Shown here piece by piece: positions 47,142-58,337 of a stretch of 58,337 nucleotides of DNA; within the stretch, counting starts at the first letter, position 1; every line of letters starts with the position of its first letter. Origin of the DNA: Paracoccaceae bacterium. GTDB taxonomy: Bacteria; Pseudomonadota; Alphaproteobacteria; Rhodobacterales; Rhodobacteraceae. A model generated the notes under the pieces. It did no database searches. It was given only the letters and a program-made list of their open reading frames with translations, and had not been told where the DNA came from. The position numbers and the translations under genes were made by a program. The stretch spans positions 1 through 58,337 of the forward strand of contig JAIXSA010000146.1 in NCBI GenBank assembly GCA_027484915.1, in the 5' to 3' direction.

Positions 47142-47216
<75 letters not shown>

Positions 47217-47226
47217 TTCTATCCTA

Positions 47227-47295
47227 TTGATCTGAAAGAAAACCCTTGATCTGAAGGGCTTCATGTCATTTCTGGTGCCAGAACAGGTGCCAGAA
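47227..47295 (+). repeat. Paired direct repeats between tRNA-Thr and the integrase stub
   Basis: TTGATCTGAA occurs at 47227-47236 and 47246-47255 (19-base period); GGTGCCAGAA at 47274-47283 and 47286-47295 (12-base period). Short direct repeats between an attachment site and an integrase gene often are arm-type integrase or excisionase sites; this is inference. Confidence 0.55.
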
Positions 47296-47308
47296 TGGGA
47301 AGATCCAC

Positions 47309-47758
47309 ATGGCCGCCAAGCGTCGTCATTGGAAGGAGAAGGATGGTCGTTTCTGGGCCAGATTGGCGATACCCTTGGCCTTGCGCCCTTTCTTCGACAA
47401 CAAGACTCAGCTGACCGAACCCCTTGGCGGTGACCTCAGGGAGGCAGATCGCAACCATGCCGCGGCCGTTGCTCGTCTGCAGGCGATGATTGATGCTGCT
47501 AGAGCGATGCAACGGATTGAAGTCGGAGAGGCAAGCCCTGACAAAGGGTTTACCGCCCCGTTCAACGATGCCACGGACTACGAACTGAAGGCTGGTACGT
47601 GCCACCCTGATCGCAGCTTGCGCACCTGTCGCCATTCTGCCTTGCGGGCCGCGCCAGCAACGCCGACCGGCCGAAAGGGGCGGAAAGCGCACGGCAAGAC
47701 CGACGACATTCGTCGCAGCGCCCAGTGTCGCAAAGCTATCACTAAGTCGAAGGCGTAG
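47309..47758 (+). pseudogene. Tyrosine integrase, N-terminal remnant
   Basis: The open frame has 149 codons, but only about the first 70-90 read as the N-terminus of a phage-type integrase: MAAKRRHWKEKDGRFWARLAI-type start, then NKTQLTEPLGGDLREADRNHAAAVARLQAMID, the arm-binding and early core-binding region (DUF6538-like). After about residue 95 the sequence becomes unlike integrases (basic, no helices) and the catalytic R-H-R-Y core is absent. Start 93 bases after tRNA-Thr, same direction, as for integrases that use this tRNA. A deletion has joined its 5' end to unrelated DNA. Confidence 0.7.
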
Positions 47759-48251
47759 CCTTTGCCTTTCCCTCGGGCTTAAGAGCCGGGCGCGGTCGAC
47801 TTGCCAATTCGACGGCGGAATTCACGCCGATGCCCGTCATGCACAGCAACCGCACGATAATCTGGTCGGATGCGCTGCCGGGAACCTGCCCCGTGGTGAT
47901 GGCAAAGCTGGCCCCGATGAGGGCATGGGTCGTCAGACGCCACACCGGTTCCGCATTCGACATCTCGAACCGCCCAGCCTGCGAGGCGAGTCGCAGGTCC
48001 CGGATGGCAAAGGGTCCCATCATGCGGAACATGGCGTCGGCGATGACCTCGGACCGGTTCAACATCTGCGCCCAGCGCACGTCGTTCGTCGCCGTGTCCA
48101 GCACCTTGCGGATCCCAAAGGCATAGACCTGCGCAGGGTCCTCGAAGGTGTCCGTCACTTCCTGAATCCGCAAGGCTAAATCGTGCATCAGCGTCTCGCG
48201 GACGGCGATTGCGAGCGGCGGCTGCTCGCGGGGAAGGAATCCGTTACCGCC
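47742..48251 (-). pseudogene. TetR/AcrR-type regulator, C-terminal remnant
   Basis: Frame with a coherent helical, TetR-type ligand domain (GFLPREQPPLAIAVRETLMHDL..., RWAQMLNRSEVIADAMFRMMGPFAIRDLRLASQAGRF, LIGASFAITTG). The N-terminal helix-turn-helix is missing: upstream of about 48251 the sequence is unrelated and an in-frame stop occurs near 48280. An ATG at 48188 could give 148 residues, but without a DNA-binding domain. It overlaps the end of the integrase frame, so both were trimmed by the same rearrangement. Confidence 0.6.
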
Positions 48252-48773: not shown

Positions 48774-50042
48774 TCAGACTCCCTGGAACGGCCTCGCATC
48801 GTTTGCGGCGATGGCGAGCCCGTCCGCAACAGCAGTGAAAACTTCGCTGAACGAATGGACAGCCTTTGGGAACTGTTCCTTCATGGTCTCCGATACCATC
48901 GACATCAGGCTGGAGCCTCCGACATAGACCACTTTCTCGACGCAGGAGACCTCCAGGCCCGCGATCCGCAGCGTTTCGCGTGCGCCTTCGGCCAAAGCGT
49001 CTGCATGACGAGCAAGGCTTTCGGTCAGCGCCTCCGCAGAGAGCGGAACAGATAGGCCAGGCTCGATCTGATCCAGCAGGATGAAGGCCCTCTCCGCCCC
49101 GCCATTTGCCGCGATCTTGCCCCGCTCCACGGCAAAGCTCATATCATGCCCCAGTTCTTCATCCAGCACCTTTGCCAGACGGCCCAGCTTTTCCGGCTGG
49201 TGCGCCAGGCGCACCATCTCGGCCGCAAGGCGGCGGTTCTGCGGCGTGTAGAGGAACGGGATCATCTCCCAGGTGGCCAGGTCGTTGAAGATGGCAATCG
49301 GGGTAGGCGTGCTGCCGGGTCCCAGAAGCTTGCGCAGGTCAGTCCCCTTGCCGAGCTGCGGCATCACCCGGTCGATGCTGATCGAGCGGTCGAAATCCGT
49401 CCCGCCGATGCGCACCCCGTGATTGGCCAGGATCGTCACCCCGTCCGGGCCGGAGCGGAACAGCGAGAAGTCCGAGGTGCCGCCGCCCACATCGACGATC
49501 AGGGCGACTTCCCCCGCGTTCCCCAGCGCGCCACTGGCGATGGCGGCCGCCTCCGGCTCGGGCATGAAATCCACCTCCCGGAAGCCCGCCGCCAGATAGC
49601 AGGCGCGCAGGTCTGCCTCGGCAGCGGCTTCTCGCGGGTCGCCTGTGCCGTGGAACACAACGGGCCGCCCCGAAAGCACGCGATCGAAGGTCACGCCCGC
49701 CTGAGCCTCGGCCCGGGCTTTCACCTCGGACAGGAATCGCGAGATGATGTCGACGAAGGTCACCCGTTCGTTGAGGATTTGCCGGCGCTCGTGCATCAGG
49801 CTGGTGCCGAGGACGCGCTTCAGGGCCCGCATGAAGCGCCCTTCCGCACCCTCAATCAAAGCCTGGTTGGCATGGTCTCCGATCAGTGTCCTGCGGGTAT
49901 CGTAGTCGAAGAAGAAGGTCGTCGGGATCGTCATCCGACCCGGGGCGAACTCGATGAGCTTCGGCCGCCCGTCGGCCATGTATCCGGCCGCCGTATTCGA
50001 CGTGCCGAAGTCAACCCCAAGCCCAAGCGCTGCCTGCGCCAT
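48774..50042 (-). CDS. Hsp70-like actin-ATPase fold protein (YegD type)
   Basis: 422 residues from the ATG at 50042. Phosphate-binding loops GVDFGTSNTAAGY (about 8-20) and VDVGGGTSDFSLF, and the adenosine motif VVYVGGSSLMS. It has the Hsp70 nucleotide-binding domain but no peptide-binding or lid domain, as in E. coli YegD. In between is an alpha-helical region (FLYTPQNRRLAAEMVRLAHQPEKLGRL). Lone gene, 129 bases downstream of the thioesterase that ends the carboxylase operon; whether it belongs to that operon is not clear. The role of these short Hsp70 proteins is unknown. Confidence 0.88.
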   Translation of the reverse strand: MAQAALGLGVDFGTSNTAAGYMADGRPKLIEFAPGRMTIPTTFFFDYDTRRTLIGDHANQALIEGAEGRFMRALKRVLGTSLMHERRQILNERVTFVDIISRFLSEVKARAEAQAGVTFDRVLSGRPVVFHGTGDPREAAAEADLRACYLAAGFREVDFMPEPEAAAIASGALGNAGEVALIVDVGGGTSDFSLFRSGPDGVTILANHGVRIGGTDFDRSISIDRVMPQLGKGTDLRKLLGPGSTPTPIAIFNDLATWEMIPFLYTPQNRRLAAEMVRLAHQPEKLGRLAKVLDEELGHDMSFAVERGKIAANGGAERAFILLDQIEPGLSVPLSAEALTESLARHADALAEGARETLRIAGLEVSCVEKVVYVGGSSLMSMVSETMKEQFPKAVHSFSEVFTAVADGLAIAANDARPFQGV

Positions 50043-50171
50043 GTCGCTGTTCCTCGCGCCTGCAAAGCGGTCGTCGATAGGGGAGGGGCAACAGGGTGTC
50101 AAGCGGAGGGCTTGGTTCTACGAACCATGATCGCTTGTCTGGGTCTCCGCGCCGCGCGCCAACGCCAACAG

Positions 50172-50588
50172 TCAAGAATCTTTCGCCTGGATCATCACTT
50201 TCAGGGGCTCGACCTCCGCCGCCGTCAAGCGACCGCCTTGCATGACGAAAATCCCGCGCTTTTCGTGGCCCTCGAACACCGTCCGGCCATCCGTTTCGGC
50301 CTCATATCGCAGGGTCAGGCTGCGACTGCCCCAGTCGATGCCCGTCAATCGCAACTGGATGCGCTGCCCCTCCCGGACGGGCATTCGGAAGTTCATGCCC
50401 ACATCCATCAGCCCGATCCCAACGGCATCCAGATCGCGGCACAGGCGGGCGTGACCGCCCGCCCTTTCCTGCAGCAGCCGGTGAAACGTCGCGTCCATCC
50501 AACGGAAGTAATTGGGATAAAAGACGATCCCCGCGGGATCGCAATCCCCGAAAGACACGTCTACCGCATGTTCCACCAGCGCCATCAT
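50172..50588 (-). CDS. Hot-dog acyl-CoA thioesterase (4-hydroxybenzoyl-CoA thioesterase type)
   Basis: 138 residues, single hot-dog domain. The motif FGDCDPAGIVFYPNYFRWMD carries Asp 17, the catalytic Asp of the 4HBT class. Hydrolyses a CoA ester in the cytoplasm. It starts two bases after the BKACE stop (TGA CG ATG) and is the last gene of the operon, so it probably releases the acid or recycles CoA from the acyl-CoA that the operon makes. Confidence 0.9.
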   Translation of the reverse strand: MMALVEHAVDVSFGDCDPAGIVFYPNYFRWMDATFHRLLQERAGGHARLCRDLDAVGIGLMDVGMNFRMPVREGQRIQLRLTGIDWGSRSLTLRYEAETDGRTVFEGHEKRGIFVMQGGRLTAAEVEPLKVMIQAKDS

Positions 50589-50590
50589 CG

Positions 50591-51481
50591 TCAGGCCCCC
50601 AGTTGCGGCAGGCCAAGCATCTCGCGCGCCTCGGTAGGGGTTGCAGGCTCATAACCCAGTTCGCGGATGATGCGGACCATCTTTGCCACCAACCGCTCGT
50701 TCGTGGCCAACTCGCCCGGCGCGATGTAAAGATTGTCCTCAAGCCCAACCCGGACATGGCCACCCGCCAGAACCGCGTGGGTCGTCGCAGGGAATTGCGC
50801 TTTGCCGATGCCCGAGACGCAGAACAGTGCGCCCGTTGGCAAATGCGCGACCAGATGGTCAAGGACTTCCGGCGTATAGGGAGAGGCGTTCTGGAAGCCC
50901 CGTTCGCCGCCAAGAACGAAGTTGATCCAGTAAGGCGGCTTGTCGAACCCGCCGTTGATCAGGCGCAACGGATCTTGCATCAGATGCGGCAGGCAAAAGC
51001 ACTCCCATTCCGGTTTGATGCCGGTTTCGATGAACTTCGCCGCCATCGCATCGCAGCGCCGCGGCGACGTGTTCACAAGGATCTCGCGCCCGCCGAAGGA
51101 GGCAAGCACGGTATGGGCGTCGAAGGTCGCCATTTCGGCACCGGCATCCAGCCCCTTCATCCGCTCGGCGAACATGATCTCGTGCAGGCCCGGTTCAATC
51201 TCGCGCGTCATGTCGCCATCGACGCCGCCGCCGGTGGAGTTGTTGATGATGATGTCCGACACCGCGCGGATGCGGGCGTTGATGTCGCGGTAGATCGCGG
51301 CATCGCAGGTCGCCTGATCGTCAGGGCGGCGGGCGTGGACGGCGACGATGCTTGCACCTTCATCCGCGCAACGCTTCACACAGGCCGCGATTTCGTCGGG
51401 CTGGGTCGGCAGGTTCAGGTTCTGCGACTTCTTCGCCATGCCGCCGGTCGGGGCGACCGTGATGATGACCTTGTTTTTCAT
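50591..51481 (-). CDS. Beta-keto acid cleavage enzyme (BKACE/DUF849) with altered metal site
   Basis: 296 residues. BKACE enzymes condense a beta-keto acid with acetyl-CoA and give acetoacetate plus a new acyl-CoA. Family pattern present: ITVAPTGG at the start, IIINNSTGGG, EWECF, IGKAQFPATTHAVLAGGHVRVGLEDNLY with the metal Glu. The metal site is changed: the usual HLHARDP reads AVHARRP, so the first zinc His is Ala and the Asp is Arg. The GIGR Arg is Lys. Either metal binding differs or the substrate does. The next gene, two bases on, is a thioesterase. Confidence 0.88.
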   Translation of the reverse strand: MKNKVIITVAPTGGMAKKSQNLNLPTQPDEIAACVKRCADEGASIVAVHARRPDDQATCDAAIYRDINARIRAVSDIIINNSTGGGVDGDMTREIEPGLHEIMFAERMKGLDAGAEMATFDAHTVLASFGGREILVNTSPRRCDAMAAKFIETGIKPEWECFCLPHLMQDPLRLINGGFDKPPYWINFVLGGERGFQNASPYTPEVLDHLVAHLPTGALFCVSGIGKAQFPATTHAVLAGGHVRVGLEDNLYIAPGELATNERLVAKMVRIIRELGYEPATPTEAREMLGLPQLGA

Positions 51482-51491
51482 GTTCTATCCC

Positions 51492-52268
51492 TCATTTCGC
51501 CATGCAGCCGCCGTCGATCACGATGCAGGCACCGGTGACGAAAGACGAAGCCGAGGAAGCGAGGTAAAGCGCCGTGCCCTTCATCTCGGACGGTTGGGCG
51601 AGGCGTTTCATCGGGGTGAAGTTGGTGGTCACTTCGACGAATTCGTTCTCGTCATAGGGGCCAAGCTTGGTGACGAAGAAGCCGGGGCAGATTGCATTGA
51701 CCTGAATGTTCTTCTCTGCATATTGCAGCGCCAGCTCACGCGTCAGGTTGACGACCGCGCCCTTGGTGGCGGTGTAACCCGGCATCGGAAAGACGCTGGA
51801 TGACCCCGCCAGGCCCCACATCGAAGCGGCGTTGATGATCTTGCCCGACCCCTGCCGCACCATGATGCGCAAGGCCGCGCGGGCAAAGTAGAACACGCCG
51901 TTCATGTTGATATCGACGACCTTGCGCCAGTTTTCGGTCAGGCAGTCATGCATTAGGGTCGGGACCGGATCGCCGATCCCGGCGTTGTTGAACAGGATGT
52001 CGAGGCGTCCGAAGCGCCGGTCGATCTCGGCCACGGCGGCGTCGACGGCGGCCTCGTCGGTGATATCGCCAGTCATCGTCTCGCAAGGCAGGCCGCGGGC
52101 GTGCATGGCTGCGGCGGTTTCCGCCAGGCCCGCCGCGTCGCGGTCAAAGCAGACCGGGGTGGCGCCCGCCTCGGCAACCGCTTCGGCCATTGCGCGGCCA
52201 AGGCCCGAACCGCCGCCGGTGATCAGTGCAACCTTGCCTGAAAGGCCGAATATGTCCTGAAGGCTCAT
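51492..52268 (-). CDS. Short-chain dehydrogenase/reductase
   Basis: 258 residues from the ATG at 52268. Classical SDR: cofactor motif TGGGSGLGRA (about 14-23), an Asp at the end of strand 2 (CFDRD), pointing to NAD(H), NNAGIGD, catalytic Ser in INAASMWG, YTATK with Tyr and Lys, and CPGFF. Probably oxidises a secondary alcohol to a ketone or the reverse. Separated by 10 bases from the dikinase subunit before it and from the BKACE after it, so part of the operon. Confidence 0.92.
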   Translation of the reverse strand: MSLQDIFGLSGKVALITGGGSGLGRAMAEAVAEAGATPVCFDRDAAGLAETAAAMHARGLPCETMTGDITDEAAVDAAVAEIDRRFGRLDILFNNAGIGDPVPTLMHDCLTENWRKVVDINMNGVFYFARAALRIMVRQGSGKIINAASMWGLAGSSSVFPMPGYTATKGAVVNLTRELALQYAEKNIQVNAICPGFFVTKLGPYDENEFVEVTTNFTPMKRLAQPSEMKGTALYLASSASSFVTGACIVIDGGCMAK

Positions 52269-52278
52269 GCTGGTCTCC

Positions 52279-53325
52279 TTAAGCTTTTGCGCTGCGCAGG
52301 GTGTTGGCAAGCACGGCCTGCGCCGCGTCGAGGATGGGCGCCGCCGATGCCGCCGCGTGGCGGCCCGACCAATAGGTTTCGGGGCGGCATTGAAGCAGGA
52401 TCAGATTGCTGCCCGATGGCAGATCGCGGTCGATTGCAAATTCGATGTCGACCGGATGGCCGTGCTGCCGTTCAAGCGCCTTGCCCAGTTTGGCAAGTGC
52501 CGTGACCTCGTCATCGGTCAGGCAAAAGAGGGCGCGGCGGTCGGGCGATACATCGGCCACGGTGGCACCGTCGACGTATTCGATTGCCTTTTCGCCCAGC
52601 ACCTTTTCGACCAGTCCCAGCCCGATCTTGTTCACCACGAAGCGGTCCGGCGTCACCTCGCCACCGACGACCGACAGGCCAAGGCCGTAGGCAGCCTCGA
52701 TGGCAATGCGCGACCGGTCGCCCGTCAACGGTGACAGGGTGAACATCACCCCCGCCGCCCGTGCGTTGACGGTCTTTTGCACGACCACGGCCATTTCCAC
52801 CTCGGTCGGCTGGATGCCGTTCTTCCAGGCATAGGACATGGACCGCGCGGTATAGGCACTGGCCCAGCAGCGCCGGACGTAAAGCGCCACCTCGTCGATC
52901 CCGCGCATGCCGACGAAGGTGTCATATTCGCCTGCGAAACTGGCCCCTTCGGCATCTTCCGCCGTAGCGCTCGACCGCACGGCGACCGATACGTCCGGCC
53001 CGCAGACGGCGCAAAGCGCGTCATAGGCGCGGGCGATTTCGGCGCGGATCGCGGGGGGGAAATCCCCCTCGTCGAACATCGCGCGAATTTGCATCTCGGC
53101 GGCCTCAAGACCCTCGATCTTCTCGTGATCCACACCCGCCAGCAGATCGACGATGCGCGTGCGGATGCCACTGTCTTCCAGATGCTGATGATAAGCGGCA
53201 GTCGACACGGTGAACCCCGGAGCAACCGGCAGCCCCGCCTGGGCCATCTGGGCAAGGCCAAGCGCCTTGCCCCCGACCAGCCTGGCATCCAGGCTGGCCT
53301 TGTCCGCGAACGGAATGGTGAACAT
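52279..53325 (-). CDS. ATP-grasp subunit of a split PEP-synthase-like dikinase
   Basis: 348 residues. Corresponds to the N-terminal ATP-binding domain of PEP synthase: GGKALGLAQMAQAGLPVAPGF, VAVRSSATAEDAEGASFAGEYDTFVG, MAVVVQKTVNARAAGVMFT, and the end HPVDIEFAIDRD...LILLQCRPET. Splits ATP to phosphorylate the His of its partner. Size matches subunit 2 of phenylphosphate synthase (about 40 kDa) and the ATP domain of rifampin phosphotransferase. Follows the His subunit gene by eight bases. Confidence 0.9.
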   Translation of the reverse strand: MFTIPFADKASLDARLVGGKALGLAQMAQAGLPVAPGFTVSTAAYHQHLEDSGIRTRIVDLLAGVDHEKIEGLEAAEMQIRAMFDEGDFPPAIRAEIARAYDALCAVCGPDVSVAVRSSATAEDAEGASFAGEYDTFVGMRGIDEVALYVRRCWASAYTARSMSYAWKNGIQPTEVEMAVVVQKTVNARAAGVMFTLSPLTGDRSRIAIEAAYGLGLSVVGGEVTPDRFVVNKIGLGLVEKVLGEKAIEYVDGATVADVSPDRRALFCLTDDEVTALAKLGKALERQHGHPVDIEFAIDRDLPSGSNLILLQCRPETYWSGRHAAASAAPILDAAQAVLANTLRSAKA

Positions 53326-53333
53326 CTCTGGCC

Positions 53334-55145
53334 TCACAGCACTTCGACAAGGCCGGTGCGCCCGTCGATGCGCACCCGCTGGCCGGTTTTCAGGCGCGCC
53401 GAGGCGAAGCCCGTCGAAACCACGGCCGGCATCCCGTATTCGCGGCAGACGATGGCTGCGTGGCTCATCATGCCGCCGATGTCGGTGACAACGCCCGCCA
53501 CCACCGAAAAAGCCGAGGCCCATGACGGGGCGGTGATCGGAGCCACGAGGATTTCGCCGGGCTGAAGATCGGCGATTTCGCTTTCATGCCGGATCACACG
53601 CACCGGCCCTTCGGCAACACCGGGGGAAGCGGGAATTCCCTTGAAGGTCAGCCCGTCCGCCGTGGTGGCCCCCAGCCATTCCTTCACCCGCTCGGTCGTG
53701 ACGCCATAGTTCATCACGGCAAAGGGATCGTTCACCTCGGCAGGCGGCAGGCCATAGGCGGGCGTGATCGACGCCGACCGCAATGCCGCCATGATGCCCT
53801 TGCGGCGACCGATCTCGGCCTGCCAATGCGCCACACCCCGCGCCGGAACGCCGATGGCCCAGGACTGGAACGCGTCTGCCAGTGCCTGATCCAACTCGAA
53901 GCGGTTCAGGTGGTAAAGGTCTTCCTCGTCCTTGAAGAAGCCGATCTTGACCAGCATCCGCGACAGTTCGCGCACCTTTTGCCAGAACACCGCATGGGTC
54001 CAGTGTTCGACATAGATGTTGTGCTCTTCGATATAGGGGAACACGGCCCGCGACAGGTTCAGCGCGTCATCGAAACGCTTGGCCTCGGTCGGGTTCAGCA
54101 ACGCACGGTATTCACCGGCAAGCTCGTCCTGTTCGGCGGCAAGCTGCTCGACGGGGCGGTCGATGTTTTCGCCCGCAAGCAGCCGTTCGGCATAGCGCGC
54201 AATCCCCTGCAGCGGGACCGACAGATCGTCGTTCCAGGTCTTCTGGTCATGCAGGAAGCCATATTCCGAAAAATAGTTGAACCATGGATCGCGGGTCGCC
54301 TCGAAATCGGCGTGCCAAGCCTTGCCGGCTTCGGTTTGCGCCAATGCCGCAAAGACCGTCTCGGGCGAACCGCCCGCCGTCAGGACCGGGCCGATACCCG
54401 CGGCAACACCCGCCTTGGCAAGCCGGCGCAGCTCTTCGTCGGGGCGGAACATGATGCCCTTGATGCCTGCCACCATGCGGGCGACCGTCTGGTCCTCGAT
54501 CTCGGGGAAGGCGTCCTTGCAGAATTGGAAGAACACCATGTAGGCGCCGTAGCCCAGGCCCAGCATCTCGAAGTGATACTGCCAGATCAGGAAGAATTCA
54601 TCGACCAGCCGGTGATAGTTCTCGATCACCTGCCAGCTTGCCGACTTGCCCCAGCCTTTCGTGACCACTTCTTCCGGCTCGAATTCGGGGAAGGAATCGA
54701 AGCTCAGACCCTTCATCACCTTGATCGAGGCGAGCATCTTCTCTTTCCACTGGGCGTAAAGCTGGGGCCAGTTCTGGAAGTAATGCCCCGCACGCAGCCC
54801 GAACAGTTCGGCCCGCTTGCCGATCTCGGCAGAGTCGGTCACCGGCAGCGGGCAGATATAGACGAACCCGTTGACCATGCGCACGTCGAGACCGAGAGAG
54901 GTCGGAAGCGCGATGGAACGGGTCGAGTTCACCCCCACGCCCAGATAGACCGCCTCGGCGCCAATGCTGTCGAACGGATGCACGGCGCGCGACCAGTGCA
55001 TGCTGTCGGCAAACCAGAAGCGGCTGTCCTCGGTCCCGCGCCCTTCGGGCTGCGAGACGAGGTAGTAGGGATACATCTTTTCCCAACCCTCGGCCCCTTT
55101 GGGCGCTGCAGCTTCGTGAAAGAATTCAAAGCGTTCGTTCTTCAT
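53334..55145 (-). CDS. Phosphohistidine and substrate subunit of a split dikinase
   Basis: 603 residues. The C-terminal swivelling domain has GGMMSHAAIVCREYGMPAVV with the phosphorylatable His at about 562, near the His 569 I recall for phenylphosphate synthase. The protein ends 41 residues later, so the PEP/pyruvate TIM barrel that follows this domain in PEP synthase is absent. The first 480 residues are a helical substrate domain, as in phenylphosphate synthase subunit 1 or the middle domain of rifampin phosphotransferase. It should therefore phosphorylate a hydroxyl or enol other than pyruvate; the substrate is unknown. Its start overlaps the HAD stop (ATGA). Confidence 0.87.
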   Translation of the reverse strand: MKNERFEFFHEAAAPKGAEGWEKMYPYYLVSQPEGRGTEDSRFWFADSMHWSRAVHPFDSIGAEAVYLGVGVNSTRSIALPTSLGLDVRMVNGFVYICPLPVTDSAEIGKRAELFGLRAGHYFQNWPQLYAQWKEKMLASIKVMKGLSFDSFPEFEPEEVVTKGWGKSASWQVIENYHRLVDEFFLIWQYHFEMLGLGYGAYMVFFQFCKDAFPEIEDQTVARMVAGIKGIMFRPDEELRRLAKAGVAAGIGPVLTAGGSPETVFAALAQTEAGKAWHADFEATRDPWFNYFSEYGFLHDQKTWNDDLSVPLQGIARYAERLLAGENIDRPVEQLAAEQDELAGEYRALLNPTEAKRFDDALNLSRAVFPYIEEHNIYVEHWTHAVFWQKVRELSRMLVKIGFFKDEEDLYHLNRFELDQALADAFQSWAIGVPARGVAHWQAEIGRRKGIMAALRSASITPAYGLPPAEVNDPFAVMNYGVTTERVKEWLGATTADGLTFKGIPASPGVAEGPVRVIRHESEIADLQPGEILVAPITAPSWASAFSVVAGVVTDIGGMMSHAAIVCREYGMPAVVSTGFASARLKTGQRVRIDGRTGLVEVL

Positions 55146-56017
55146 CTGGTGTCTCCTCCCAAGAGATTTCGTGTGTTGGCAAGCAGGCGCAGCAGGTGCG
55201 CCGCGTCCTGCGCCACGAGATGCGGTTGATCCGTCGGTGGCAGTTGGGGCAGTTCGGCTTCGGTGGTCCCACCCGACAGGACAAGCACGCCAAGCCCCGC
55301 CATCTCGCGGGCCATGCGGACCTCGATCGAAGCCATGTCGCCCATGATGACGAGGTCGCCGCCACCAAGCCTTGCGCGCAAAACGCCTGCGAGTGCTGCC
55401 GAGGGTTTGCCGCAGACCAGGGGGGCCACGCCGGTGATGCCATGAATCGCGCGGGCGATTGCGGTCGAGCTTGAAACCGCCCGCCCTGCCCCGCCGTGGA
55501 ACCACGGCGTATCGACCGTCAGGTAGAACACCGCGCCATGATCCGCGATGGCAAGGCATGCTGCGTTGATATCGCGCGAGGCATAGGTATCGGCGGCCCC
55601 CACAACCACGGCGACCGGCACTTCGCCCGGGCCGGCGATGCGCACCCCCGCCTCCGCCAGCGCCTGGAACATGCCGTCCTCGCCAAGCGCCACGACAGGC
55701 CCCGCGCCATGCACTGCCGCGATATGGTCGGCTGATGCCGTGGCAGCGGTGATCATGTCGGCGTCGGCCACATCTAGGCCGATCTTGCGCAGATGCGCCG
55801 CATAATGCGCGACGGGCCGCTGCGAGGCATTGGTGCAGACGATCACCTGCTTGCCAGTCGCCTTCAGCCAGCCAAGGAACTCGACCGCGCCGTCGATCGG
55901 AACGCCGCCCGCCCCGCCCGCCTTGGCGGTGCGAACGATGCAGCCGTCGACATCCAGCACCCATGCGGGGGCTGCCGCGATGCGGGCGACCATTTCGGGA
56001 TCATTGGTAAAGCTCAT
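55142..56017 (-). CDS. HAD-superfamily phosphatase, NagD-like
   Basis: 291 residues. HAD motif I VLDVDGCIVRT (Asp 22 nucleophile, Asp 24 acid), motif II CTNASQRP, motif III Lys in CGKPSAA, motif IV LVIMGDMASIE. The C2-type cap in the middle places it with NagD / phosphoglycolate phosphatases. Motif I has DGC where DGT is usual. Overlaps both neighbours by four bases, so it is made together with the carboxylase and the dikinase; it might remove phosphate from a phosphorylated intermediate or side product. Confidence 0.88.
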   Translation of the reverse strand: MSFTNDPEMVARIAAAPAWVLDVDGCIVRTAKAGGAGGVPIDGAVEFLGWLKATGKQVIVCTNASQRPVAHYAAHLRKIGLDVADADMITAATASADHIAAVHGAGPVVALGEDGMFQALAEAGVRIAGPGEVPVAVVVGAADTYASRDINAACLAIADHGAVFYLTVDTPWFHGGAGRAVSSSTAIARAIHGITGVAPLVCGKPSAALAGVLRARLGGGDLVIMGDMASIEVRMAREMAGLGVLVLSGGTTEAELPQLPPTDQPHLVAQDAAHLLRLLANTRNLLGGDTR

Positions 56018-57474
56018 TTCGCGCCACCTTTCGCGCCGGTCATGGCCATTGCGCCCGAACCCGCCTTGATGCTGACCGACCAAGGCCGGTCCTGATCGGA
56101 AAGCTGCGCCAGCAGCGCCGCCATGCCGCCATCGGCCCGACCGCGCCGCGCCGCCATCGCGTCCACCTGCTCGGCGGGCATCACCGCCCGAAGCAGCAGG
56201 TCCTCGTCGGATATCCCCGCGCCAAAACGGGCCCGCACCTCGGCCAGCGTCGGCTCTTCGCGGGGCTTGCGCTGCTTGGCGCGGGGGGTCGCTATCGCGC
56301 GGTCCAACAGGTTCTGGTCCACCTGTCCGGGCATCGGCCCGAACTCTCCAAGCAGCAGGTCCACCACCTCGTCCGACAGGCGGCCATACCGCTCGCCGGT
56401 CACCAGGTTCAGCGTGGCCTGCGCCACGATGTATTGCGCGAAGGGCGTCACCACGATGGGCCAACCCAGATCCTCGCGCACCCGCACCGCCTCGTCGGTG
56501 ATGCGCGGAGCAAGGTCGGGGCGGCCCATCTCGGCCAGTTGGCGGCGGGTGGTCGTCAAGACCCCGCCCGCCAATGTGTGGCGGTAGTAATCCTCGTCAT
56601 ATTCCACGGGCGCGGCCTCTGGCAGGTCCATCAACCGCGCTTCGCGGCGCAAACGGTCGGACGCTGCCTGCATCGCCTGCGCGTCGACGGAAACAGAATG
56701 GCCTCGCGCGATCAGGTTCTTTACCAGTTGCAGGGCGTTGCTGTGCGACGACCCGTTGGCAACCGGCGGCAGGGCGCAATGCAGCTTCGACATCCCCAGA
56801 TCGGCCGCCGCAAGCAGCGTCAGGGGGGCGATGCCGGTATTGCAATGGGTGTGGATTTCATCGATGGCCAGCCGCTTCAACCGCGCCCGCAGCTTGGGGA
56901 TCAGGCGGTGCAGCCGCTCGGGCGTAAGAAGGCCGGAAGGGTCCTTGAGATAGATCGAATCGATATCGGTGCACCCGTCCAGTTCCGCGATCCGGTCGGC
57001 GTAGAAGTCATCCGTGTGCACGGGACTGAGGGTGAAGCAGATGCCCGCCACCACCTCCTCGAACCCCGCCTGTTTCGCCATACGGGCGTTCTCGCGGGTC
57101 GAGGCCATGTCGGACATCGGATCGACAACCCACATCCGGGTCACGCCATGACGGCGCAGCAGGTCATAGGCCAGTTGCAGCACCGATTTCGGGGTCTGGC
57201 CAAAGCTGATGAAGCGCCGCCCCGTGGTCAGGAAGCCCAGCTTCGCCCGCGGGGCCAGTCGCCGCGCCAGGTCGAGCCGCGCAAACGGGTCTTCTTTCTG
57301 GTAGCGCACCGCCACCGCAAGGATCGTGCTGGTCAAAAGCTCGATCGCTTCATAGCCGCACTGGTCCAGAAGGGGCATCACCTGCCGCACCATGCGGTCG
57401 GTCACGCCGGTAGCCCCCCAGACGCTCTGGTTGCCGTCCCGCAGCGAGACGTCGATCAGTTTCACATCGGTCAT
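56014..57474 (-). CDS. Biotin-dependent carboxyltransferase (pyruvate carboxylase B / OadA type)
   Basis: 486 residues. TIM-barrel carboxyltransferase: LRDGNQS (11-17), metal His in EIHTHCNTG (His 208, His 210), carbamylated-Lys position Lys 177 in YLKDPSGLL, and the C-terminal PYC/OADA domain with LGWPIVVTPFAQYIVAQATLNLVTGERYG. No biotinyl domain follows: there is no AMKM, and the tail ends KAGSGAMAMTGAKGGAK. The biotin carrier must be encoded elsewhere, perhaps upstream of the window. Carboxylates a keto compound, usually at the carbon next to C=O; the true substrate is unknown. Confidence 0.9.
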   Translation of the reverse strand: MTDVKLIDVSLRDGNQSVWGATGVTDRMVRQVMPLLDQCGYEAIELLTSTILAVAVRYQKEDPFARLDLARRLAPRAKLGFLTTGRRFISFGQTPKSVLQLAYDLLRRHGVTRMWVVDPMSDMASTRENARMAKQAGFEEVVAGICFTLSPVHTDDFYADRIAELDGCTDIDSIYLKDPSGLLTPERLHRLIPKLRARLKRLAIDEIHTHCNTGIAPLTLLAAADLGMSKLHCALPPVANGSSHSNALQLVKNLIARGHSVSVDAQAMQAASDRLRREARLMDLPEAAPVEYDEDYYRHTLAGGVLTTTRRQLAEMGRPDLAPRITDEAVRVREDLGWPIVVTPFAQYIVAQATLNLVTGERYGRLSDEVVDLLLGEFGPMPGQVDQNLLDRAIATPRAKQRKPREEPTLAEVRARFGAGISDEDLLLRAVMPAEQVDAMAARRGRADGGMAALLAQLSDQDRPWSVSIKAGSGAMAMTGAKGGAK

Positions 57475-58337
57475 GGCAGGCGTCCTTCGGCAAATTCCTC
57501 TTCCAGCCAGCGCGTCGTGATCGTGTTGGCGACCACATCGGGATGCGCCAGAAGACGGGCGAGAAGCGCGCGGTTGGTGATGGGCCCTTCGACCTCAAGC
57601 CGGTCGATGGCGCGAGCCGCGAGGGCAAGCGCCGCCGGTCGGTCAACTCCCGTGGCGATGACCTTGGCCATCAGCGCGTCGTAATGGGGCGGGAACAGAT
57701 AGCCTTCGTAGACATGGCTATCGAGCCGCACACCACCCACAGGCGCAGGGCGCCAGCGCGTCAGACGGCCCGGTGTCGGACGCAGCCCCTGGTCCGGGTC
57801 CTGCGCGGTCAGGCGCAGTTCGATCGCGTGGCCTTCCAGGCGGATGTCATCCTGCGCAAAGGGCAGCGCACCGCCAAAGGCCACAAGGATCTGTTCGCGC
57901 ACCAGATCAACGCCCGTGACCGCCTCGGTCACCGGGTGTTCGACCTGCACGCGGGGGTTCACTTCAAGAAAGCAGATATCCCGAGTTTCGACGTCATAGA
58001 GGAACTCGACAGTGCCAAGGCCCTGATAGGCCAGCCCGCGTCCGATCAGCAGCGCGTAGTCATGCAGGCGCTTGCGATCTTCGGGGTGAAGGGCTGCCGA
58101 AGGCGCTTCTTCAAGGATCTTCTGGTAGCGGAACTGCAAGGTGCATTCGCGTTCCCCCAGATGAACGCAGTTCCCGTGCGCATCGCCAAGGATCTGCACC
58201 TCGATATGTTTTGCCGCCCGCACGAAGCGTTCCAGGAACACCGTCCCGTCCCCAAAGGCCGCAGCTGCCTCTGATGATGCGACCGACCACGCCTGCGCAA
58301 GTTCTTCGATCGCGGTGACAAGCTTCATGCCGCGACC
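57471..58337 (-). CDS. Biotin carboxylase subunit, 5' end outside window
   Basis: The last 289 residues of an AccC/PycA-type biotin carboxylase. The visible part starts in the glycine-rich ATP loop (GRGMKLV), then [44 protein letters not shown] and the C-terminal subdomain with GRLTRWRPAP and VYEGYLFPPHYDALMAKVIATG. It ends after about 450 residues' worth of biotin carboxylase, with no biotinyl domain. Its stop overlaps the carboxyltransferase start (ATGA). The operon therefore begins at or beyond this gene. Confidence 0.92.
   Translation of the reverse strand, partial: GRGMKLVTAIEELAQAWSVASSEAAAAFGDGTVFLERFVRAAKHIEVQILGDAHGNCVHLGERECTLQFRYQKILEEAPSAALHPEDRKRLHDYALLIGRGLAYQGLGTVEFLYDVETRDICFLEVNPRVQVEHPVTEAVTGVDLVREQILVAFGGALPFAQDDIRLEGHAIELRLTAQDPDQGLRPTPGRLTRWRPAPVGGVRLDSHVYEGYLFPPHYDALMAKVIATGVDRPAALALAARAIDRLEVEGPITNRALLARLLAHPDVVANTITTRWLEEEFAEGRLP

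Follow-up and report, generated by a model that had tools for sequence, protein, structure and literature searches.

A probable side-chain pathway for 4-hydroxyphenyl methyl ketones, with a BKACE and thioesterase ending, in a Paracoccaceae bacterium

Which compound is phosphorylated, carboxylated and cleaved by the products of a compact operon at the edge of a Paracoccaceae contig? The window, meaning the whole 58,337-nucleotide stretch of DNA that was analysed, is the entire contig C104 (JAIXSA010000146.1) of assembly GCA_027484915.1, which comprises 173 contigs and 3.84 Mb. Eight genes on the minus strand, at positions 50172–58337, encode a biotin carboxylase (BC), a carboxyltransferase (CT), a HAD phosphatase, the two subunits of a split dikinase, a short-chain dehydrogenase/reductase (SDR), a BKACE protein and a thioesterase. 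The operon probably encodes a pathway that degrades the side chain of 4-hydroxyphenyl methyl ketones, with 4-hydroxyacetophenone as the likeliest substrate, and a BKACE and a thioesterase would carry out its last steps.

As judged by protein families, five of the eight genes match the core of the hydroxyphenylethanone (Hpe/Acv) pathway. In Rhodococcus rhodochrous GD02, 4-hydroxyacetophenone or acetovanillone first receives a phosphate on its phenol oxygen from HpeHI. The phosphorylated ketone is the substrate of HpeCBA, which does not detectably carboxylate the free ketone, and HpeD then strips the phosphate (PMC9618137). The kinase, carboxylase and phosphatase of hpeHICBAD were assayed, and HpeE and HpeF were proposed to activate and then cleave the beta-keto acid (PMC9618137).

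Kinase, carboxylase and phosphatase genes

The HpeH-type substrate/His-swivel subunit of the putative phenol dikinase (53334–55145, 603 aa) contains a PEP-utilizers domain and matches NCBIfam PRK08296 ('hypothetical protein') with 881 bits against a cut-off of 578. Its catalytic motif, TDIGGMMSH, fits the published T/SxxGGxxxH motif (PMC12167813). The split kinases PpsAB and CreHI are homologous (PMC12167813). The HpeI-type ATP-grasp subunit (52279–53325, 348 aa; Pfam PPDK_N, 6.7e-98) adjoins it, and a relative of this partner adjoins the His subunit in many related loci. The HpeD-type HAD-IIA phosphatase (55142–56017, 291 aa) scores above the cut-off of Pfam Hydrolase_6 and reaches 79 bits with NCBIfam HAD-SF-IIA, below the cut-off of 100. 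The HpeB-type CT (56014–57474, 486 aa; Pfam HMGL-like and PYC_OADA) reaches 243.7 bits with PRK09282 (PycB), below that model's cut-off of 402 for pyruvate carboxylase, and a separate pyruvate carboxylase-like frame of 1157 aa, with PYC_OADA, Biotin_carb_N and Biotin_lipoyl matches, is located on contig C155; these two results speak against an ordinary pyruvate carboxylase. The HpeA-type BC (57471–58337; Pfam CPSase_L_D2 and Biotin_carb_C), the eighth gene, is truncated by the contig end at 58337, leaving the C-terminal 288 aa. Two parts of the three-part biotin carboxylase, the CT and the C-terminal part of the BC, are thereby present in the operon, and the carrier is found in a syntenic locus of a Devosia metagenome-assembled genome (MAG).

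As in the window, the hpeHICBADEF genes of GD02 encode a two-component phenol dikinase and a NagD-type phosphatase and are tightly packed with 4-base overlaps; their biotin carboxylase has three components, of which the window shows the CT and the BC, the carrier being presumed from Devosia. The likeness is one of protein families and of the motif. The window differs in gene order (BC-CT-HAD-H-I) and has the SDR, BKACE and thioesterase genes in place of the acyl-CoA ligase HpeE and the hydrolase HpeF, both absent among the eight. The six-gene core acvABCDEF of Sphingobium lignivorans SYK-6 is of the same kind as that of the window. The Acv system of this strain is homologous, and in N. aromaticivorans a similar pathway is opened by a single-component kinase, MarK (PMC13101465).

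The original prediction, which had the split dikinase phosphorylate a phenol- or ketone-type substrate, the biotin enzyme carboxylate it to a beta-keto acid, the BKACE cleave this acid with acetyl-CoA and the thioesterase release the product, agrees with these comparisons as far as homology tells. It knew of no pathway with this gene set, whereas the kinase–carboxylase–phosphatase core is known from the Hpe/Acv pathway, whose substrates are 4-hydroxyacetophenone and acetovanillone (PMC9618137). It also had an enol phosphate carboxylated; in the Hpe pathway the phosphate goes on the phenol hydroxyl and, since the core matches that pathway, the phosphate is most likely placed on the phenol oxygen here as well. 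The HAD protein, which had been listed without a role, is present and would remove the phosphate after carboxylation.

The proposed pathway might open with the SDR (51492–52268, 258 aa; Pfam adh_short) oxidising a 1-arylethanol to the matching ketone. The HpeHI-type dikinase would phosphorylate the phenol oxygen with ATP via a phosphohistidine, the biotin carboxylase would add CO2 to the methyl group of the aryl-phosphate ketone and the HAD phosphatase would take off the phosphate, giving 4-hydroxybenzoylacetate; these three reactions have been shown for homologues. The BKACE (50591–51481, 296 aa; Pfam BKACE, 1.3e-76) would then convert 4-hydroxybenzoylacetate and acetyl-CoA into 4-hydroxybenzoyl-CoA and acetoacetate, and the thioesterase (50172–50588, 138 aa; Pfam 4HBT_2/4HBT) would release 4-hydroxybenzoate, with which a 4-hydroxybenzoate 3-monooxygenase could continue. 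Steps five and six of this scheme would replace the AMP-forming ligase HpeE and the hydrolase HpeF of the published pathway.

Operon structure and the syntenic Devosia locus

All eight frames are open, and Pfam and NCBIfam profiles concur with the family names given to the genes. The junctions comprise three 4-base overlaps and gaps of 2, 10, 10 and 8 bases, confirming the eight-gene operon on one strand, with overlaps or gaps of at most 10 bases, that had originally been described. In the Devosia MAG the gene set recurs in unchanged order, divided between the end of one contig (L037), which carries branched-chain-type ABC transporter genes, a LuxR/MalT-type regulator, the carrier, a full BC and the CT, and the start of another (L125), which carries the HAD, HpeH, HpeI, SDR, BKACE and thioesterase genes. 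The amino-acid identity between the window and Devosia is 64–90% over the eight genes, and dN/dS is 0.05–0.27 in all of them; the HAD comparison is limited to 183 codons by truncation of the Devosia gene, and that of the BC, which is 90% identical to a 452-aa Devosia protein, to 288 codons by truncation of the window gene. All eight genes are under purifying selection. Because the order is shared and dN/dS is low throughout, the operon is more than a chance arrangement.

Thioesterase, BKACE clade and substrate ring

Among proteins of solved structure, the three best matches to the window thioesterase are all 4-hydroxybenzoyl-CoA thioesterases, PDB 5wh9 and 1bvq included. The window protein has the segment GDCDPAGI of the Pseudomonas-type 4-hydroxybenzoyl-CoA thioesterase, with its catalytic Asp. 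The longer segment GDCDPAGIVxYPNY is shared with 1bvq, at low overall similarity (1.6e-9 to 1bvq and 2.5e-15 to 5wh9). The protein is predicted to be a 4-hydroxybenzoyl-CoA (aroyl-CoA) thioesterase. A 4-hydroxybenzoate 3-monooxygenase is encoded elsewhere in the genome (NF006091, 443 bits against a cut-off of 351; below the stricter TIGR02360 cut-off).

The same chemistry might instead act on another ring, namely on acetovanillone, acetosyringone or a longer 4-hydroxyphenyl ketone, giving vanillate or syringate. The GD02 and SYK-6 enzymes act on several such ketones (PMC9618137, PMC13101465), and there are three VanA_C matches in the genome; the best scores 68 bits, and its frame is truncated at the end of a contig. 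The monooxygenase and the resemblance of the thioesterase to 4-hydroxybenzoyl-CoA thioesterases speak against it, neither decisively, and we regard this alternative as possible but doubtful.

The BKACE of the 4-hydroxyacetophenone route proposed here scores 258 bits with Pfam PF05853 (cut-off 24.8). The family is shared with Kce of lysine fermentation, the founder of BKACE (PDB 2y7d), so that acetyl-CoA-dependent cleavage of a beta-keto acid is to be expected. In vitro, 4-hydroxybenzoylacetate was a substrate for a few BKACE enzymes (Bastard 2014, as cited in PMC4922564). The window protein is 57–87% identical to a clade, some members of which adjoin Hpe carboxylases or aromatic-acid genes. 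It has no relatives in a scan of viral_contigs; 609 records of a plasmid collection match it, 11 of them with at least 60% identity. A single-sequence AlphaFold2 model of the BKACE had a mean predicted local distance difference test score (pLDDT) of 40 and was not used.

On plasmid pBAR1 of Sphingomonas bisphenolicum AO1 (L035), a 4HBT thioesterase gene and a BKACE gene are located directly upstream of genes for a Tm-1-like protein, the biotin carboxyl carrier protein (BCCP), BC, CT and HAD; the BKACE is 60% identical to that of the window. As in the window, BKACE and thioesterase thus stand beside the carboxylase and phosphatase genes, whereas a UPF0261/Tm-1-like protein takes the place of the two-gene kinase. 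An aldehyde dehydrogenase gene and a lignostilbene-dioxygenase-like gene (550 bits, below the cut-off of 800) are nearby; the enzyme encoded by the latter would be expected to act on 4,4'-dihydroxy-alpha-methylstilbene, an intermediate of bisphenol A degradation, and to yield 4-hydroxyacetophenone; this conversion has been reported in a bisphenol A community (PMC6366072). Two S. yanoikuyae plasmids have the same BKACE–CT spacing and are probably the same element. The sphingomonad genome G370 has Tm-1-like, BCCP, BC, CT, HAD and BKACE genes in a row, together with a divergently oriented thioesterase gene.

Among 249 Sphingomonadaceae genomes sampled from a larger group, 31 have the CT (E ≤ 1e-90), 7 the BKACE clade (E ≤ 1e-60) and 5 both; the hypergeometric P = 3.9e-4 is only a guide, because related genomes are not independent. 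Another sphingomonad genome, G395, presumably that of SYK-6, contains a six-gene acv-type operon (L174) and, far from it, one gene of the BKACE clade (L173), with no thioesterase match near the latter. In SYK-6, unlike the window, the last steps are encoded away from the acv operon (PMC13101465), and VceB is described as a vanilloyl-CoA/syringoyl-CoA thioesterase (PMC11837543). The work on VceA and VceB may already describe the BKACE/thioesterase chemistry. Since the core is published and that work may cover the ending, the operon is best regarded as a variant of a known pathway and not as a new one. A full-text literature search, which had most subscription papers outside its reach, returned no paper pairing a BKACE with an Hpe-type carboxylase.

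Elsewhere in the clade, the BKACE gene of Variovorax (L129) is surrounded by genes for a ligase, an acyl-CoA dehydrogenase, a hydratase, a hydroxyacyl-CoA dehydrogenase, a thioesterase and a gentisate dioxygenase, a set that can fit aromatic beta-keto acids; the neighbourhoods in L128, L130 and L132 have no clear aromatic link. A thioesterase gene adjoins the BKACE in 7 of the 18 distinct clade loci (the window, L125, L035, L172, L175, L129 and L134), adjacency in L128, L130 and L132 being judged from annotation alone.

Related loci and competing readings

Related carboxylases were collected by scanning a species-genome collection with a CT alignment, and the best 80 of the 383 loci encoding a relative were considered. 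Thirteen of them (L037–L049), from the Devosia MAG, Aromatoleum, Eoetvoesiella, a Burkholderiales MAG and nine actinobacteria, have a CT 58–85% identical to that of the window; in the other 67 the identity is 39–49%. Neighbouring genes were mapped by tblastn, with at least 40% identity required for the HpeH type and at least 50% for the Tm-1-like/UPF0261 type. An HpeH-type gene only was found in 45 loci, a Tm-1-like/UPF0261 gene only in 16, both in none and neither in 19; among the last, several are short contigs, two have an HpeI-type match only and four have very divergent HpeH-like proteins. A HAD match is present in 57 of the 80 loci, and an HpeE- or HpeF-type gene is near 37. These two types were equated with acetoacetyl-CoA-synthetase-type and amidohydrolase-type genes, on the basis of the homologues named in Table 1 of PMC9618137 and of the presumed identities of AcsA2 and CouO.

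A number of observations weigh against the 4-hydroxyacetophenone reading. While the core occurs in many genomes, the whole set, which the original prediction expected to be conserved, is seen in one other: all eight genes are together only in the window and the Devosia MAG. No BKACE gene is found in any of the best 80 CT loci within the available flanks. The BKACE clade is present in 9 of the 78 genomes bearing those loci (the genome of L044 is left out of this search), and in 5 of the 9 an HpeE-type gene lies next to the carboxylase; the clade also occurs with no nearby carboxylase, as in L129 and L134. The SDR is generic, with gluconate 5-dehydrogenases as its nearest NCBIfam models; it is 85% identical and syntenic in Devosia and has a 56% identical relative in the hpe cluster L071, and its designation as a 1-(4-hydroxyphenyl)ethanol-type alcohol dehydrogenase is the weakest assignment in the operon. 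The hpe carrier and the N-terminus of the BC were not found in the contigs inspected among those bearing the genome's seven Biotin_lipoyl and three Biotin_carb_N matches, the Biotin_lipoyl matches on C35 (two) and C144 being left out. As those contigs gave neither, both are probably in an assembly gap. Finally, Sphingomonas genomes of the bisphenol A community were assigned a 4-hydroxyacetophenone monooxygenase route, and an isolate used the ketone slowly (PMC6366072).

Candidates for the carrier on C89, C100 and C137 were rejected, being by eye sucB-like, accB/accC and pdh-like, and the Biotin_lipoyl match on C155 falls inside the pyruvate carboxylase-like frame. Mutual exclusivity of the BKACE and HpeE endings was also rejected, because of the five BKACE-clade genomes with an HpeE-type gene: Georgenia thermotolerans, two Pusillimonas, Xenophilus and Neopusillimonas have both.

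The metal site of the BKACE is a further point of the same kind. In Kce the metal is bound by a His-x-His motif and a Glu. The position of the first zinc-binding histidine (H46 in Kce numbering) is occupied by alanine in all 19 aligned clade rows, which represent 18 distinct genes (rows L130 and L137 are the same RW1 gene). This histidine is kept in the five PDB relatives with alignments, Kce included, and in all five outgroup rows. The clade keeps the second His, the Glu and the Asp/Arg pair, and its ATC motif is invariant; the substitution leaves room for a changed mechanism. The protein could then hydrolyse or decarboxylate the beta-keto acid rather than serve as a cleavage enzyme. Some groups of the BKACE family had decarboxylation only, or no activity detected (PMC4922564). 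This seems improbable given the retained residues and the neighbouring thioesterase genes, which fit an acyl-CoA product best.

The kinase tree adds to the points against. In the HpeH tree the window and Devosia group with Aromatoleum toluclasticum and Eoetvoesiella (support 100/99), a group nested in a clade of 13 rows (100/100). Outside that clade, the closest rows are a CreH-like one (L180, so labelled from its neighbour genes) and a PpsA-like one (L181), on long branches with support of 90/78 and 89/78; the SYK-6 Acv kinase is further away. Because these rows are the nearest, acetophenones cannot be singled out from the kinase tree alone; it is the carboxylase and phosphatase that point to them. 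A phenol (phenylphosphate) or 4-cresol pathway, which this weakly supported placement and the homology to PpsAB and CreHI would allow, is highly unlikely: the eight genes include neither the phenylphosphate-type CBS-domain third gene and ppc carboxylase genes annotated in L181 nor a P450 system as in L180, and a biotin carboxylase and a BKACE are present instead. As improbable is the carboxylation of the enol phosphate of an aliphatic or aryl ketone, for although enol phosphates can be products of dikinases related to phosphoenolpyruvate synthase, the homology of the His subunit to HpeH/PpsA-type proteins, which phosphorylate phenol oxygens, extends over its length, and HpeCBA uses an aryl phosphate that is retained through carboxylation until HpeD acts.

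Several of the related loci show other combinations. The UPF0261/Tm-1-like protein, at least 50% identical to that of pBAR1, is near the CT in the 16 loci mentioned above (L060, L062–L065, L074, L076, L079, L080, L092, L098, L100, L103 and L114–L116), never with an HpeH-type kinase, and also in L033–L035 and L172; it may be the single-component kinase type (MarK). UPF0261 is still listed as uncharacterised in Pfam. HpeH-like proteins of 24–30% identity, near the CT in Chloroflexota, Myxococcota and Dethiobacter MAGs (L067, L073, L097 and L107), form a separate tree group. In Aromatoleum toluclasticum (L038), an hpe-type carboxylase–phosphatase–kinase cluster has molybdopterin and ethylbenzene-dehydrogenase-type genes, as well as an SDR match, on its upstream side, as if the molybdenum enzyme hydroxylated an alkylphenol to feed the cluster. 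Plasmid pRB98 of Rhodococcus oxybenzonivorans (L179, 1139–11175) has genes annotated as AMP-binding protein, single-chain 'pyruvate, phosphate dikinase', BCCP, BC, CT, OB-fold protein, thiolase and tyrosine-protein phosphatase, which looks like another kinase–carboxylase pathway, with a thiolase ending. A record titled as a Klebsiella pneumoniae MAG (L104) contains an hpe-type cluster, with a kinase very close to that of a gammaproteobacterial MAG (L089), and is probably mislabelled or mis-binned.

In the window itself, an Hsp70-family gene (48774–50102, same strand; best NCBIfam match PRK11678, below cut-off) directly follows the operon. Further away are a tRNA-Thr(GGT) gene (47142–47216) and a DUF6538 fragment (47309–47758, 149 aa), a domain of the integrase N-terminal type, with a frame that has a TetR C-terminal domain only beside them. 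The region 47142–48188, 2–3 kb from the operon, is possibly the scar of an integrated element; the final 14 bases of the tRNA-Thr gene are not repeated exactly anywhere else in the window.

The BKACE clade may, tentatively, represent a distinct cleavage enzyme, specific for aroylacetates and rebuilt at its metal site. Paired with a 4HBT thioesterase, it would make up a portable ending that was recruited into Hpe carboxylase operons on more than one occasion and is able to take over from the ligase/hydrolase ending. The latter would cost ATP, converted to AMP, and the BKACE and thioesterase ending would spend the thioester of acetyl-CoA; were acetoacetate activated by CoA transfer from succinyl-CoA, that thioester would be regained, at a saving of about one ATP equivalent. 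The published route for lignin- and bisphenol-derived 4-hydroxyphenyl ketones would thereby gain an alternative ending with no ATP-dependent ligase, and the near-complete operon is a candidate for engineering. For the BKACE family, aroylacetates are suggested as the physiological substrate class of one clade with an unusual metal site.

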